DNA of 64,000 bases, taken from NCBI GenBank assembly GCA_016195915.1, contig JACPYS010000011.1, positions 1 to 64,000 of the forward strand. The letters are read 5' to 3'. Below are positions 58,401-64,000 of the stretch, in pieces. Each line of letters opens with the position of its first letter. Position 1 is the stretch's first letter. Below the pieces are notes generated by a model. The model ran no database searches, was not told the DNA's origin, and saw only the letters and a list, made by a program, of their open reading frames with translations. Both the position numbers and the translations under genes were made by a program. This DNA is from Betaproteobacteria bacterium (lineage in GTDB: Bacteria > Pseudomonadota > Gammaproteobacteria > Burkholderiales > SG8-39).

Positions 58401-59806
58401 GCGATCTCCTTGCCATGAGCGCGGCTGAACTCGCCCGCGCGATTCGTGCGCGCAAGACCTCCTCGGTCGAAGCGATGCAGGCGGTGCTGCCTGCCGCGAG
58501 GAAAGCGCACGAGAGGCTCAACTGCTTCGTGCGCATCGACGACGACGGGGCGCTCGCGGCGGCGCGCGCGAGCGATGCGGCGATGGCGCGCGGCCGCAAT
58601 GCCGGGCCGCTTGCCGGCGTTCCGATGGCACACAAGGACATGTATTACCGCGAGGGCGAGTGTTCTTCCTGCGGTTCGAAGATCACCCGCGACCGGCCCG
58701 CGCCGGCGACCGCGACCGCGCTCAAGCGGCTGGATGCGGCAGGCGCGGTGCAGTTCGGCGTACTCAACATGACAGAATTTGCCTACGGGCCGACCGGGCA
58801 CAACTATCACTGGGGTCACTGCCGCAATGCCTGGAACCCCGATTACCTGACGGGCGGTTCTTCGAGCGGATCGGGCACCAGCGTGGCTGCTCGGGCAAAC
58901 TTCGCTGCGCTGGGCTCCGACACCGGCGGCTCGATCCGCCTGCCGTCGCATTTCTGCGGCGTAGCGGGCATCAAGCCGACCTACGGCCGCGTCAGCCGCG
59001 CGGGCGCGATGCCGCTGTCGTTCTCGATGGACACGGTCGGCCCGCTCGCGCGAACGGTCGAGGACTGTGCGCTCATGCTGCATTCGATTGCCGGGCAGGA
59101 TCCCGCCGATGCGACGTCCAGCGCCTTGCCGGTTCCCGATTACCTCGCGGGACTGGAGCGCCCCGTGAAAGGTCAGCGCATCGGTGTTCCGACGGCCTAT
59201 TTCCGCGACGCGCTCGACCCCGGAATCGAGAAACTTCTCGACGCGAGCCTGGACGCGTTCCGCTCGCTCGGCTGCGAGATCGTGGACGTCGCGATACCCG
59301 GCATGGATGCGTGGAACCGCGCCGGCACCGCGATCATCGCTGCGGAAGCCGCCGCCATGCACGCGAACTGGCTGCGCGAGCGGCCGCAGGACTATTCGGA
59401 CCAGGTGCGCGCGCGGCTCGAGATCGGCGCGGGCGTGACCGCAATCCAATACCTCAACGCGCTTCGTTTGCGCGATGCGGCGCTCAAGACGTGGCTCGCG
59501 GAAGTCATGTCCAGGGTCGATGCGGTGCATGCGCCGGTGGTAGCATTCGCAACGCCGAGCATTGCGGAGACGGACGTCGGAGGCGGCGCGAAAATGAATG
59601 AGCTGATGGCCCTGGTCACGCGGCTGATGCGCCCGGTGAATTACCTTGGACTGCCGTCGCTCGCGGTCCCCTGCGGTTTCCAGACCCATGGACTGCCCTG
59701 CGCCTTCCAGTTGATCGGCAGGCCCTTTGACGAAGGGCTGTTGTTCCGTCTCGGTCATGCTTACCAGCGGGCAACCGATTGGCACACCCGGCGTCCAACC
59801 CCATGA
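58397..59806 (+). CDS. Amidase-signature enzyme (AtzE/GatA-like)
   Basis: A 469-residue amidase. The Ser-cisSer-Lys triad is intact: K80 (PMAHKDMYY), S155 (GGSSSGSG) and S179 (GSDTGGSIRLP). LPCAFQLIGRPFDEGLLF is the common C-terminus. The GTG start overlaps the AtzG-like gene. Such enzymes hydrolyse small amides, e.g. carboxybiuret or allophanate relatives. The substrate cannot be told from sequence. Confidence 0.93.
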   Translation: MSDLLAMSAAELARAIRARKTSSVEAMQAVLPAARKAHERLNCFVRIDDDGALAAARASDAAMARGRNAGPLAGVPMAHKDMYYREGECSSCGSKITRDRPAPATATALKRLDAAGAVQFGVLNMTEFAYGPTGHNYHWGHCRNAWNPDYLTGGSSSGSGTSVAARANFAALGSDTGGSIRLPSHFCGVAGIKPTYGRVSRAGAMPLSFSMDTVGPLARTVEDCALMLHSIAGQDPADATSSALPVPDYLAGLERPVKGQRIGVPTAYFRDALDPGIEKLLDASLDAFRSLGCEIVDVAIPGMDAWNRAGTAIIAAEAAAMHANWLRERPQDYSDQVRARLEIGAGVTAIQYLNALRLRDAALKTWLAEVMSRVDAVHAPVVAFATPSIAETDVGGGAKMNELMALVTRLMRPVNYLGLPSLAVPCGFQTHGLPCAFQLIGRPFDEGLLFRLGHAYQRATDWHTRRPTP

Positions 59807-59813
59807 GGCGAAT

Positions 59814-60944
59814 ATGAGCACTTCCAGCAAGGAACCGGCGGCGCCGAAAGCACCGCCGCTGGTGGTCGTGGCCCACGAGTCGGCCGACATTACGAAATTT
59901 TTTGCCTATGTCCTGAAGGACCATTTCAGCGTGCACACGGTCGCCGATGCCGCATCCATGGCCGCGCTGGCTGAAGGCACGCCGAAGCCGGGCATGATCC
60001 TGCTCAGTCTGACGCTGAAGGACATCGACGGTTATGAAGCCTGCCGCCGCCTGAAGGCGAACACATCGACCGCACGCATCCCGGTGATTCTGGTCGCGTC
60101 CCAAAGCGATGCAAAGGAGGAGGCGAAGGGGCTGTCGCTCGGCGCCGTGGACTACATCCTGAAACCCTACAGCCCGCCGCTGATCCTGGCACGCGTGCGT
60201 GCCTACATCTCTTTGCAGACCAGGCAGCTCGCGCTGGAGCGCATGGTGGCCGAACGCACGCATGAGCTGAAGCAGACCCGGCTCGAAGTCATTCGCCGGC
60301 TCGCGCTGGCGGCCGAGCAACGCGAAGGCGGACTCACCAACCGGGTGATCCGCATCAGCCATTACGCCAAGCTGCTCGGGCAGGCACTCGGCCTGCCGGC
60401 CGAGTCCTGCGAGATATTGTTTCAGGCCGCGCCGCTATACGACATCGGCAAGCTCGGCGTGCCGGAATCGATACTGATGAAGACGGACAAGCTCACGCGC
60501 GGCGAGCAGGAGCGCATGAAGAAGCACGCCGAGATCGGCGCGCGCATCATCGGCCAGCACGCGGACCCGTTGCTCGAAACGGCGCGCCTCATGGCGCTGT
60601 CGCACCACGAGCGCTGGGATGGCGGCGGTTACCCGCAGGGCCTCAAGGGCGACGCAATACCGGGGCCCGGCCGGATCATGGCGCTTGCCGACGTATTCGA
60701 GGCGATGACCATGACGCAGCACTACCGCGAGCCGATGGACGTACCGACCGCCGCCAAGGCGATCGCGGAGCAGGCCGGAAAGCAATTCGATCCGCGCGTG
60801 GTCACGGCGTTTCAGAAGGCGCTGCAGTTGTTGATCGAGGTGAAGGCTGCCTACCCCGACGAGCGGGCCGGCATGCACGACCTGAATTTCGCAGCGCCGG
60901 AACCGGTGCAAAAGCCGGCGGGTGCTCCTTCTCGCAGCGCCTGA
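59814..60944 (+). CDS. Degenerate receiver/HD-GYP signalling protein
   Basis: A 376-residue protein with an N-terminal receiver (about 14-130) and a C-terminal HD-GYP domain (about 160-345). In the receiver the phospho-acceptor Asp is replaced by S65 (ILLSLTLKDIDG) and the acidic pocket by AHES; K117 is kept. In HD-GYP the HD pair reads YD (Y209, D210 in APLYDIGK) and the earlier metal-ligand His is R177, while H238, HH 264-265, GYP (272-274) and ADVFEAM remain. Phosphorylation and cyclic-di-GMP hydrolysis are therefore doubtful; a binding or scaffold role is likely. It follows the amidase by 7 bases. Confidence 0.85.
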   Translation: MSTSSKEPAAPKAPPLVVVAHESADITKFFAYVLKDHFSVHTVADAASMAALAEGTPKPGMILLSLTLKDIDGYEACRRLKANTSTARIPVILVASQSDAKEEAKGLSLGAVDYILKPYSPPLILARVRAYISLQTRQLALERMVAERTHELKQTRLEVIRRLALAAEQREGGLTNRVIRISHYAKLLGQALGLPAESCEILFQAAPLYDIGKLGVPESILMKTDKLTRGEQERMKKHAEIGARIIGQHADPLLETARLMALSHHERWDGGGYPQGLKGDAIPGPGRIMALADVFEAMTMTQHYREPMDVPTAAKAIAEQAGKQFDPRVVTAFQKALQLLIEVKAAYPDERAGMHDLNFAAPEPVQKPAGAPSRSA

Positions 60945-60948
60945 ATTT

Positions 60949-61725
60949 TCATACCGCCTCGGTCAGCCGGAATCGCACGCCGCACACATTCACGGTCCGG
61001 TCGCCGGCGGCGCAGCCATGCGCCTGCGCTGCGGCGACGATGGCCGCGCAGTTCGCGACCTCCAGCTCGATTCCCGCCAGCACCGCTTGCGCGGAGTCGG
61101 CGGGCAGAAAATTGATCGCGCCGGAATCGAGTGTGATGCGAAACGTTTCTGCGCTGTGGCGTTTCACGGGCCGGCCAAGAATCTCACCCCAGCGCGCGGA
61201 GAAACGCCGCGGATCGGGGCACTCGATCTCCGCCGCCAGCAGACGCTGCGTGACGTCTTGCCGCACCGCCGCCTGCCAGTCGGAACCGGCGGGAGCGTAG
61301 GGACCTGCCGGGTCTTCGCCGCCGGCGGTATGGTTGAACTCGATCATCGCAGCACCGGTATCCTTCGGGTGCAATTGCACGCCGAGGTAGTCGCCGTGGC
61401 GGATCACGTTTGCGATCCGCACGCCCAGGCTTTCAACATGCCGTTGCCGCCGTACCGGATCGTCGCAGTCCATGATGACCATATAGCCGTGACCTCCGCC
61501 GTGGCGATCCAGAAAACGACCTGCGGCCGTCCCGGGACGCGTAGGCGATACGATTTCGATGAAATTGCTTCCCACGGGGAACAGCACGTTCTCGAGCCCG
61601 TATTTCGCGACGTTGGCATCCCGGTAGCATTCCTCCAGCCCGAGCACGGCCTTGATGCGATCGGTCTCCCGGGCAAGATCCGAGGTAACGAGGCAAACCT
61701 GGCGCAGCCGCAGATACGGCGTCAT
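60949..61725 (-). CDS. VOC/glyoxalase-like domain protein
   Basis: A 258-residue protein with a vicinal-oxygen-chelate-like repeat: QVCLVTSDLARETDRIKAVLGLEEC and HGYMVIMDCDDPVRRQRHVESLG, and a second half from about 130. The pattern is of the glyoxalase-like domain group (PF13468 type), often a metal-poor binding protein. It starts 3 bases after the enoyl-CoA hydratase stop, so both form a unit. Confidence 0.75.
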   Translation of the reverse strand: MTPYLRLRQVCLVTSDLARETDRIKAVLGLEECYRDANVAKYGLENVLFPVGSNFIEIVSPTRPGTAAGRFLDRHGGGHGYMVIMDCDDPVRRQRHVESLGVRIANVIRHGDYLGVQLHPKDTGAAMIEFNHTAGGEDPAGPYAPAGSDWQAAVRQDVTQRLLAAEIECPDPRRFSARWGEILGRPVKRHSAETFRITLDSGAINFLPADSAQAVLAGIELEVANCAAIVAAAQAHGCAAGDRTVNVCGVRFRLTEAV

Positions 61726-61728
61726 GCC

Positions 61729-62565
61729 TCAGGCACCACTGAACGCAGGGGCCCGTTTCTCGACGAAGTGCGCCACGCCTTCCTTGAAATCCGCGCTCGC
61801 AAAACTCTTGCGCATCTCACTGTCGGCGAGGTCGAGTGACTGGTTGAAGTCCTGGCACAACGCCATCCAGACCTGCGCCTTCATGATCGCCATCGAGCGT
61901 GGTGATACCGAATCGGCAAGCGCTCGGGCATAGGCTATTACATCGTCCATGAAGGAGGCTTGCGGGAACACCTTGTTGACGAGGCCGATGCGTTCGGCTT
62001 CGGCGGCGCCGAACTTGCGCGCGGAAAGCAGCAGGTCCAGAGCGTTCGCAGGCCCGATGAGGCGCGGCAACAGCCAGCTGATTCCGTGTTCGGCGATCAG
62101 CCCGCGTTGCGCAAACGAGGTCGTGAACTTCGCGTCGCTGCCTGCGAAGCGCAGGTCGGCATAGAGCGCGAGTACGAGGCCGAGCCCGGCAATCGGGCCG
62201 TTCACGGCCGCGATGACCGGTTTGCTTGCTCGCAGCAGGTAGCCGAAACGGCCGCTGTAATGGGGGGCCACGTCGGCCTCCAGGCCACTTCGGAGTTCAG
62301 GCCTGGTGTCTGCCGTTTGCTTGGCCGTGGCGGTGCCGGGCGTGATCTGCTGCAGCAGCTTCATGTCCGCGCCCGCGCAAAAGCCGCGGCCTGCGCCGGT
62401 AAGGACAATCACTCGCACCGTGTCGTCCGCGATGGCAGCGGCGACCGCGGACTCCAGGCTTCGCCCCATGGCCGTCGTGTAGGCATTCAGGGAATCCGGG
62501 CGATTGAGCGAAACAATAGCGACCTTGTGTTTCACCTCGTACAGCACATCTTCGTAAGCGCTCAT
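61729..62565 (-). CDS. Enoyl-CoA hydratase/isomerase family protein
   Basis: A 278-residue crotonase-fold enzyme: VIVLTGAGRGFCAGADMKLL with the oxyanion-hole region, KPVIAAVNGPIAGLGLVLALYADLRF, and the active-site helix EHGISWLLPRLIGPANALDLL. A Glu pair typical of true hydratases is not fully clear, so isomerase or other activity is possible. The ATG has GGAGG at a good distance; a longer in-frame start lacks one. First gene of a pair with the VOC protein. Confidence 0.9.
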   Translation of the reverse strand: MSAYEDVLYEVKHKVAIVSLNRPDSLNAYTTAMGRSLESAVAAAIADDTVRVIVLTGAGRGFCAGADMKLLQQITPGTATAKQTADTRPELRSGLEADVAPHYSGRFGYLLRASKPVIAAVNGPIAGLGLVLALYADLRFAGSDAKFTTSFAQRGLIAEHGISWLLPRLIGPANALDLLLSARKFGAAEAERIGLVNKVFPQASFMDDVIAYARALADSVSPRSMAIMKAQVWMALCQDFNQSLDLADSEMRKSFASADFKEGVAHFVEKRAPAFSGA

Positions 62566-62749
62566 CGAGCGTCCTCCATCGTTTGGTTTTAACGACCCAG
62601 CCGCCCGTGAGTTTAGCCCGGGCAAACCAATGCATTACGCACGCTCGCCACGCGGGTGTACCAGGAAAAGATGCAGGGGAGTTCTCTTGTATCTCGTTGA
62701 GAATTCACCATAAAGCGTTCACTCATCGTATCAGCCGTACGAAACCGAT

Positions 62750-62796
62750 GTACTTCGGGACGCCTTCCGTGCTTCGTCAGCGCGCCCCCGAAGTAC
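62750..62796. promoter_or_regulatory. Inverted repeat, possible activator site
   Basis: GTACTTCGGG (62750-62759) and CCCGAAGTAC (62787-62796) are perfect reverse complements with a 27-base spacer. The centre is about 80 bases upstream of the sigma-54-like -24 element, a usual distance for an enhancer-binding protein. Confidence 0.4.
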
Positions 62797-62853
62797 CCGA
62801 ATCCGCCTGTAACCGTATGAAAAATAAACGATACCAATACGATCTGCAGCCCC

Positions 62854-62868
62854 TGGCACGATCGATGC
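62854..62868 (+). promoter_or_regulatory. Sigma-54-type promoter
   Basis: TGGCACGATCGATGC matches the -24/-12 consensus TGGCACG-N4-TTGC with one mismatch (A for the first T), and has the required 10-base spacing between GG and GC. It lies 43 bases before the ATG of the small membrane protein. Confidence 0.55.
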
Positions 62869-62911
62869 GTTGTGAAGGTCAAGCACCAACAGATCACCGA
62901 CGGAGAACATC

Positions 62912-63271
62912 ATGACGACCCTCACATACAACACGGCAGTTGGAATCGGCTTCGGCTGGAATCCCACTGGAAACGGCTATACGCCCATCACCGGCGCGAA
63001 AGTCAGCCAAGTCCTCAACAACGCGAAAAATGTAGCGCTCTTCTTCGCAGCCCCCTTCATCGGATTGGCCTACCTGCTCGCGTTCCCGTTCGTCGGTCTT
63101 GCGATGATCGCGTGGATCGCCTGCAAAGCGGTGATGAAAAACGTCGCAGTGCGCCGCATCGCGATCGCGATTGCCGCACCGTTCATCGCACTGGCCTTCG
63201 TGACCGTCGGCCCGGTCGTCGGACTCGGAGCGCTGGTCTGGATCGGCGGCAGAGCGATGCTGAAGACGTAG
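62912..63271 (+). CDS. Small membrane protein of unknown function
   Basis: A 119-residue protein I do not recognise. Two long hydrophobic blocks (about 42-68 and 81-112), each ending in a basic patch, repeat a similar design: VALFFAAPFIGLAYLLAFPFVG and IAIAAPFIALAFVTVGPVVG, suggesting internal duplication. The first 30 residues are polar with Gly and Thr (GIGFGWNPTGNG). GGAGAA precedes the ATG. It stands alone, driven by a sigma-54-like promoter and followed by a possible terminator. Confidence 0.75.
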   Translation: MTTLTYNTAVGIGFGWNPTGNGYTPITGAKVSQVLNNAKNVALFFAAPFIGLAYLLAFPFVGLAMIAWIACKAVMKNVAVRRIAIAIAAPFIALAFVTVGPVVGLGALVWIGGRAMLKT

Positions 63272-63305
63272 ATACCGAAACAACGGTCGATTCGAAGGGC
63301 GAGGT

Positions 63306-63335
63306 CCGAAAGGATCCCGCCTTTCATTCGGTTTT
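63306..63335 (+). terminator. Possible intrinsic terminator
   Basis: GAAAGG-ATCCCG-CCTTTC (63308-63325) forms a 6-base stem with further CCG/CGG pairing outside and is followed by TTTT. Modest stem and short U-run, 35 bases after the small membrane protein's stop. Confidence 0.4.
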
Positions 63336-63390
63336 CCCGCATTTGGACGCTTGCCCGAATGAAGCCTGCCGGTGCAGTATCGGGCATCTC

Positions 63391-64000
63391 ATGACGAAGG
63401 GATTTCTCCCCGGATCGAACGCCTGGCTCGTACTGGTTTGCGGCAGCCGGGTACTTGGCGCGACCTGGTTCGTCGCCTACTCGGCAGTTCTGCCGCTGAC
63501 GCAGTCCGCCTGGGGACTCTCAGGGCGCGACGCGGGACTGATCCAGTCCGCCTTCCACCTCGGCTACCTCACGTCGTTATTCATCGTCGGGTTTCTTGCC
63601 GACCGTTACGGGGCAAAGCGCACCTACGTTCTTACCGGCATCGCCGCGTGGGTGAGCCCGCTCTTCTTTGTCGCTTTTGCCGATGGATTCTGGTCCGCGT
63701 ATTGGCTGCACCTCCTGACGGGGCTGTGCGGCGGCGGCACCTATACACCGGTGCTCGCGCTGATCAACGACAACGTGGAACGCGCGCGCAGAGGGCGCGC
63801 GATGGGGTTGCTGATCGCGGCATCGAGCGCCGGCTATGCGATTTGCCTCGTCACGACAGGGGTCGCCCTCAGGTTCACGGATTGGCGTGGTGCGATGGCC
63901 GTCATCGCCGCGTTTCCCGCGCTTGCCTGGCTGATGACTCTTTACGCCGTTCGCGACACGCCGAACACGATTCATCCGCGCCCGGCCGGCGAGTCGATGC
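63391..64000 (+). CDS. MFS transporter, truncated by the window edge
   Basis: An open frame of 203 codons to the window end. It reads as the N-terminal half of a major facilitator: WLVLVCGSRVLGATWFVAYS as helix 1, then the motif-A loop GFLADRYGAKRTYVLTG at about 70-86 and further helices (LTGLCGGGTYTPVLALIND, GLLIAASSAGYAICLVTTGV). It is unrelated in detail to the MFS gene at 23.9 kb. No strong Shine-Dalgarno sequence precedes the ATG. Confidence 0.82.
   Translation, partial: MTKGFLPGSNAWLVLVCGSRVLGATWFVAYSAVLPLTQSAWGLSGRDAGLIQSAFHLGYLTSLFIVGFLADRYGAKRTYVLTGIAAWVSPLFFVAFADGFWSAYWLHLLTGLCGGGTYTPVLALINDNVERARRGRAMGLLIAASSAGYAICLVTTGVALRFTDWRGAMAVIAAFPALAWLMTLYAVRDTPNTIHPRPAGESM

Follow-up and report, generated by a model that had tools for sequence, protein, structure and literature searches.

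The window, as we call the whole stretch of 64,000 nucleotides analysed here, encodes a REC-HD-GYP protein whose receiver lacks the phosphoryl-accepting residues and whose output domain has lost part of its metal ligands. These losses have separate histories: that in the HD-GYP domain extends through a whole clade, that in the receiver is seen in the window protein alone, so that the two do not represent one joint event, as had been supposed in a preliminary description of the gene. With moderate confidence, we take the protein to be a phosphorylation-independent pseudo-enzyme or weak enzyme, which would retain the GYP pocket together with some of the metal site and would act via c-di-GMP binding and protein contacts. 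By the features tested, it lies outside both the phospho-accepting response regulators and the intact HD-GYP enzymes.

Gene and domain layout

The open reading frame is preceded by a Shine-Dalgarno-like GAGG (59805-59808) that overlaps the stop codon of the upstream amidase gene, and its GC3 is 0.832 (neighbours 0.806-0.823). The whole window gave no Rfam match at gathering scores. The following features were discerned:

59814..60944, + strand, REC-HD-GYP protein, 376 aa (translation, Pfam, AF2)
59868..60197, + strand, receiver domain, residues 19-128 (Pfam), with H21/E22/S65/A95 for D/D/D/T and K117 kept
60006..60008, + strand, Ser65 codon AGT, phospho-acceptor position
60312..60800, + strand, HD-GYP domain (HD_5, residues 167-329; Pfam); best PDB relatives PmGH 4mcw and PA4781 4r8z
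60342..60344, + strand, Arg177 codon CGG, equivalent to the PmGH ligand H189 (PmGH alignment)
60438..60443, + strand, Tyr209-Asp210 for the His-Asp dyad (PmGH alignment)
60603..60635, + strand, kept HH pair (H264/H265) and GYP motif (272-274) (translation)
60690..60728, + strand, D293 kept; E296, Q302 and R305 at PmGH D308, R314 and K317

Both domains are recognized by Pfam (PF00072, 53.5 bits; PF13487, 115.5 bits against a cut-off of 27.2). The AlphaFold2 model, built from 41 sequences, has a mean pLDDT of 92.5, a confident predicted fold that includes the receiver. Foldseek matched the N-terminal part to ordinary receivers and the HD-GYP part to PmGH, PA4781 and DvhD. The translation bears out what had been noted at first sight, namely Ser65 at the phospho-acceptor position, and an intact K117, HH pair (H264-H265), GYP (G272-Y273-P274) and ADVF (A292-D293-V294-F295). 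R177 and Y209 likewise stand where two His ligands are expected. That list of losses was correct but incomplete, as it left out D21H, D22E and T95A in the receiver and, in PmGH numbering, the changes at D183 (Glu), E185 (Gly), D308 (Glu) and R314 (Gln).

The receiver thus has the fold of its family but neither the Asp acceptor, the acid pair (H21/E22) nor the Thr/Ser (A95) of a phospho-accepting domain, and only the pocket lysine K117 is left. Judged by these residues it can probably no longer be phosphorylated. The step from Asp to Ser(AGT) at position 65 takes at least two base changes, as does that from His to Arg(CGG) at position 177; the Y209 codon is TAC.

A clade of HD-GYP proteins without the H189 ligand

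Relatives were collected from the protein's own genome, from sets of 61, 98 and 399 genomes and from a named collection, which together gave 174 loci. Partial own-genome matches that do not span the protein (27 loci, L004-L030) were dropped, leaving 147 loci and, after merging of identical rows, 136. We selected 34 rows on the joint presence of E171 and E296, the counts for which are true by construction, and added two contig-end rows (L046 and L156) on the basis of their other residues, giving a clade of 36 members. Outside the residue counts are 14 of 15 places without a locus (the remaining one, G060, being L040) and also G106:C11 and G107:C14, which served for neighbours only. In a tree of these 36 rows and 25 outgroup rows selected from the 100 non-clade homologues, computed with the diagnostic columns removed, the clade occupied a single branch with a support of 100/100.

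The clade was found in a single order. It occurs in 28 of 98 genomes of the window's GTDB family (E <= 1e-110) and in a single genus from a different family of that order (four genomes among the 399 sampled). None of its members appeared among the best 80 of 476 relatives from the named-collection scan, a selection in which near relatives may be missing.

Position 177 is never His in the clade (Arg in 34 of the 36, Lys and Gly in one each), and His is kept in all 100 non-clade homologues of the 136 distinct sequences aligned, 80 of these 100 stemming from a scan for DNA that encodes the HH-pair motif or a receiver motif. At position 209 the clade has 22 His, 13 Tyr and one Ala, so that Tyr209 recurs in 12 of the other 35 members. 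The state changed repeatedly: at least four changes between His209 and other states are needed on 34 rows, and eight when every state is counted over 61 rows. The remaining site is nearly invariant, with D210, H264, H265 and the GYP each present in 36/36, K213 and H238 each in 35/36 and D293 in 35 of the 35 rows with letters. Q302 is found in 30 of the 34 rows with letters, the other four having Arg. The window protein itself sits on a long branch (1.18) at the base of a group of 11 rows, where its placement is weak (82/50).

Some members deviate further. L152 (G097:C100) combines His209 with Gly177, though it lies inside a Tyr209 group. In L032, L033 and L151, all with Tyr209, a His directly precedes R177 (SHRV), which is perhaps a shifted ligand. 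Outside the clade, L100 (a Lysobacteraceae MAG) is a REC-HD-GYP protein with Arg-Gly for His-Asp on a very long branch.

What is left of the metal site

PmGH (4mcw) shares the HD-GYP fold of the window protein (Foldseek E 1.5e-15, 35% identity), although it has a GAF domain where the latter has a receiver. It is described as trinuclear, with three irons in G-, M- and H-sites; E185 is the bridge between M and H and D222 that between G and M, H189 is named as a ligand of the H-site, and H221 has its place next to that site (PMC4159591). The alignment to this known structure, as had been advised, pairs R177 with H189 and Y209 with H221, and reveals D183 -> E171, E185 -> G173, D308 -> E296, R314 -> Q302 and K317 -> R305 as further changes. 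The equivalents of D222, H250, H276, H277, D305 and the catalytic K225 are kept as D210, H238, H264, H265, D293 and K213, and that of Y285 is kept as well. The domain is an HD-GYP domain by profile (HD_5), fold and GYP motif, but one that lacks the His-Asp dyad (Tyr209-Asp210) and the E185/H189 ligand pair (G173, R177).

Given the roles described for PmGH, the lost ligands (those equivalent to E185, H189 and H221) all lie towards the H-site and the other five are kept; the metal site is thus not simply gone. We infer that H250, H276 and H277 would serve the G-site. H221 may serve the M-site as well, because the di-iron centre of Bd1817 corresponds to the G and M irons of PmGH. In PmGH, D308 is reported to contact H189 and R192 (PMC4159591), and the combined replacement by R177 and E296 hence points to a putative salt bridge.

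The mutants described for PmGH give an impression of what these changes may cost (PMC4159591). Activity was essentially abolished in H189A and H221A, the impact of D183A and D308A was similar and K225 mattered as much as the ligands; E185A and D305A left some activity, and R314A and K317A, which affect guanine contacts, reduced it little. After EDTA treatment a PmGH crystal with only the G-site Fe left still bound c-di-GMP, according to the same source, for which reason c-di-GMP binding is compatible with an intact G-site and GYP.

Arg177 alone would be no proof of inactivity, because RpfG of Xanthomonas is reported as an active phosphodiesterase in which Gly stands for E185 and Phe for H189 (PMC4159591). 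This leads to the strongest of the alternatives, a possibility that we rate low but not negligible: the protein could be an altered, working phosphodiesterase, RpfG-like with a mono- or binuclear G/M-site, constitutive and phosphorylation-independent, in which Tyr209 serves as a ligand or occupies the H-site. Almost all of the 36 members retain K213, the GYP and the rest of the ligands, as would not be required of a pure scaffold (the receptor DvhD, as described, lost both HD and HH), and where His209 was lost, in at least four changes, it became Tyr in 13 cases and Ala in one. On the other hand, H221A nearly silenced PmGH, and the reported proteins without an intact HD dyad, i.e. VC1087 and VCA0895 of V. 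cholerae (PMC4212101) and the YN-GYP protein PA2572 of Pseudomonas aeruginosa (PMC3411652), are inactive. Residual catalysis is nevertheless possible by analogy, considering that RpfG is active without E185 and H189 and that D183 and D308 were exchanged for the similar Glu.

Separate histories of the two domains

The preliminary description had asked for orthologues with the same substitutions. For the HD-GYP domain these recur throughout the clade, but the receiver residues D21, D22, D65, T95 and K117 are canonical in the other 35 members, the window protein being the sole exception. To quantify the difference, each of the 34 full-length members (L046 and L156 excluded) was left out in turn and compared at those columns where the other 33 show no more than one exception. 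Of 26 such columns in the receiver the window protein breaks 10, but of 44 in the HD-GYP domain it breaks 0 (Fisher 1.3e-5), and any other full-length member breaks at most three in either domain. The mean identity of the window protein to the other members is 0.367 for the receiver, where the others have 0.537 on average, and 0.559 for the HD-GYP domain, where they have 0.607.

The receiver of the window protein has thus diverged fast, and on these column and identity figures it seems to have escaped the need for phosphorylation, with the output domain still under constraint. The contrast between the domains disfavours both a sequencing error and general decay. A sequencing error can be rejected, also because the codon changes involve several bases and the same losses occur in relatives (that of H189 in all 35 and Tyr209 in 12), in agreement with the original suspicion that the substitutions are real. 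The proposed maintenance of the fold is likewise supported by the pLDDT, and the HD-GYP domain looks constrained, given its 44 unbroken columns, which also disfavour decay of the whole protein. The receiver loss itself is seen in one sequence (n=1).

The genus is represented by one further genome, G001, which does not share the gene (best match 35% identity). The two genomes have conserved NYN, acyltransferase and amidase genes in common (81.9-82.3% at the DNA level; 91% protein identity for the amidase). Comparison of window positions 59791-63408 with G001 contig C74 (L219, L229) shows that the position held in the window by this gene, between the amidase and glyoxalase-like genes, is occupied in G001 by an MFS gene and an operon for pel exopolysaccharide. 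In G001 the amidase gene is followed by the MFS gene (Pfam) and then the operon, recognized in Pfam by PelD, PelG, the PelB barrel and GH114, and, for PelF, by DUF3492 and glycosyltransferase domains; the names PelF and PelA for these genes are our presumption. The operon and the window gene each end against the same pair of genes, glyoxalase-like (an assignment below the Pfam cut-offs) and enoyl-CoA hydratase. No shared 11-mer was found at the edges of the differing block (120 versus 140 bases). The window's genome gave no pelF match at 1e-60, and among 37 genomes searched pelF matched in five (G001, G004, G006, G020 and G022). The clade was found at 1e-110 in none of these five, which are too few for a test.

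The data also bear on the unlikely scenario of a gene on its way to loss, in which selection was relaxed in the receiver first and would be in the HD-GYP domain later, leaving no function to explain. The long branch, the 10 broken receiver columns and the presence in one genome, with absence from G001, would fit. Yet the conserved HD-GYP columns are unbroken, the reading frame is intact and has its SD-like site, GC3 is 0.832 against 0.806-0.823 in the neighbours and the receiver fold is still predicted.

Clade neighbourhoods and a possible coiled-coil partner

Neighbouring genes were called with a codon-score script and coiled coils by composition and position (for L153 on a truncated ORF of 89 aa). 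L184, L185 and L193 share a gene order that runs from a PAS-kinase and a receiver through REC-GGDEF-EAL and the clade member to the coiled-coil protein and a Kup transporter, and L197 has the same order with an extra gene of 235 aa. A REC-GGDEF-EAL gene is thus immediately upstream of the clade member in the first three; it is one gene of ~240 aa away in L194, L195 and L197. Most of the other clade neighbourhoods examined have none so placed, and in the window neither a kinase nor a GGDEF gene adjoins the gene. At five loci from one genus (L177-L181) a TatD gene adjoins the clade member or is one AMP-binding gene away. A paralogue in the window's own genome (G000:C12, with His209) also adjoins TatD, Pfam TatD_DNase being assigned to the C12 and L180 copies; the C12 copy and not the window gene therefore looks like the positional orthologue of L177-L181.

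In 18 of the 34 assessable cases the clade member either carries an Ala/Glu/Arg-rich coiled coil as a fusion or has one encoded directly downstream, the fusions being L003, L141, L147, L159, L160 and L162. Four of these 18 coils run off the contig; of the other 14, all but L141 have a hydrophobic stretch of 19 residues (mean hydropathy 1.5 or more) near the C-terminus, and 12 of these 13 end in L-[RK]-L-[DE] (in L003 within the piece beyond an in-frame stop). Besides the fusions, the long Ala/Glu/Arg coiled-coil protein is present at L184:7774-10164, L185, L186, L193, L197 and L215:6787-9783, and the L184 copy has no match in Pfam or NCBIfam. The fused paralogue on G000:C6 (L176:4159-7638) stops after 765 aa, beyond which 393 aa of coiled coil and hydrophobic stretch continue in frame. 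Counted by rows, all 18 members with a coil have His209 and 12 of the 16 without have Tyr (Fisher 3e-6). Judged by the tree this association is not significant and was dropped (four independent pairs, two concordant and two uninformative).

It is very unlikely that the protein is a nucleotide-free scaffold acting by protein contact only, possibly with the membrane coiled-coil protein of the clade: the frequency of that coil (18/34), its hydrophobic C-terminal stretch (13/14 readable coils) and a similar, unlinked protein on contig C58 of the window's genome speak for it, but the GYP and remaining ligands are nearly invariant and the window gene has no coiled-coil neighbour at its locus.

Proposed mode of action

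We thus return to the phosphorylation-independent pseudo-enzyme or weak enzyme. Its receiver keeps the fold without the phosphoryl-accepting residues and probably acts as a dimerisation or docking module. The HD-GYP domains of the clade have given up the H-site-side ligands E185 and H189, and in about a third, including the window protein, H221 too. Arg and Glu stand for His189 and Asp308, with D222, H250, H276, H277, D305, the GYP loop and the active-site Lys remaining, and the domain would most likely hold one or two metals. It would most likely also bind c-di-GMP (or pGpG), hydrolysing it little or not at all, and signal by contacting a partner such as a GGDEF protein, a reading favoured by the REC-GGDEF-EAL genes at or near the upstream side of several clade members. 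A non-catalytic role in c-di-GMP sensing or scaffolding, as proposed at the outset, is a possible one. What counts against our reading is the presence of Q302 and R305 at the guanine contacts R314 and K317, as a result of which c-di-GMP may not be the ligand (although R314A and K317A cost PmGH little activity), and that the window gene has no kinase or GGDEF gene next to it.

At a broader scale, and rather speculatively, the clade could represent a distinct HD-GYP branch, in which the H-site metal was exchanged for an R177/E296 pair and the guanine-reading Arg for Q302 (30/34). Such a branch would comprise metal-assisted receptors for a cyclic nucleotide that is perhaps not c-di-GMP, with a membrane-anchored coiled coil ending in L-[RK]-L-[DE] as usual output; the window protein would then be a case that was cut from its kinases as well. 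In any event, the clade offers a natural series on what the metal site needs for binding versus hydrolysis, with 22 His209, 13 Tyr209, no His177 in 36 and the other ligands nearly all kept. Moreover, a receiver that is presumably deaf to kinases, next to a constrained output domain, points to a case in which two-component signalling may have been abandoned by a response regulator that retained its output domain.

Comparison with known systems

The protein most likely works like the known degenerate HD-GYP receptors. Proteins described with a broken dyad (PA2572, VC1087, VCA0895, ECA3548, DvhD and NosR) are inactive or presumed so, the latter applying to NosR. Like the window protein, PA2572 combines a receiver with an HD-GYP domain in which Tyr replaces the dyad His; it does not hydrolyse c-di-GMP, yet has a role in biofilm formation and virulence (PMC3411652). 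Going by its description, it differs from the window protein, in which the dyad Asp is kept. ECA3548, without the HD motif, is presumed or reported inactive and still affects c-di-GMP processes, and VCA0681 is said to work without D308 (PMC4212101). DvhD (9rbz), a c-di-GMP receptor with SQ for HD in which no metal was seen (PMC13090378), is also degenerate and matches structurally (TM-score by target 0.81). It lost both HD and HH, whereas in the window protein only the His of the HD is gone and D210 and the HH pair are present, which sets it apart from such a metal-free type.

RpfG, per the alignment in PMC4159591, shares the REC-HD-GYP layout, Gly at E185 and the loss of H189. It differs in being active and in having Phe instead of Arg at the latter, and the description on which this comparison rests mentions no loss of the HD dyad. 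The best NCBIfam match is the NosR family (NF053512), but membership was rejected since 126.1 bits is well below the cut-off of 400. The published NosR is a receiver with a degenerate HD-GYP domain as well, but is described with an HG-GTP motif and a phosphorylatable Asp (PMC12570481). On the receiver side, the aspartate-less receivers (ALR) described in PMC4395418 are alike in their changed phospho-Asp and acid pocket and their kept pocket Lys; the term 'HD-GYP' does not occur in the main text of that paper. As Asp-less receivers and degenerate HD-GYP domains were each known already, the window protein is a variant that unites the two.
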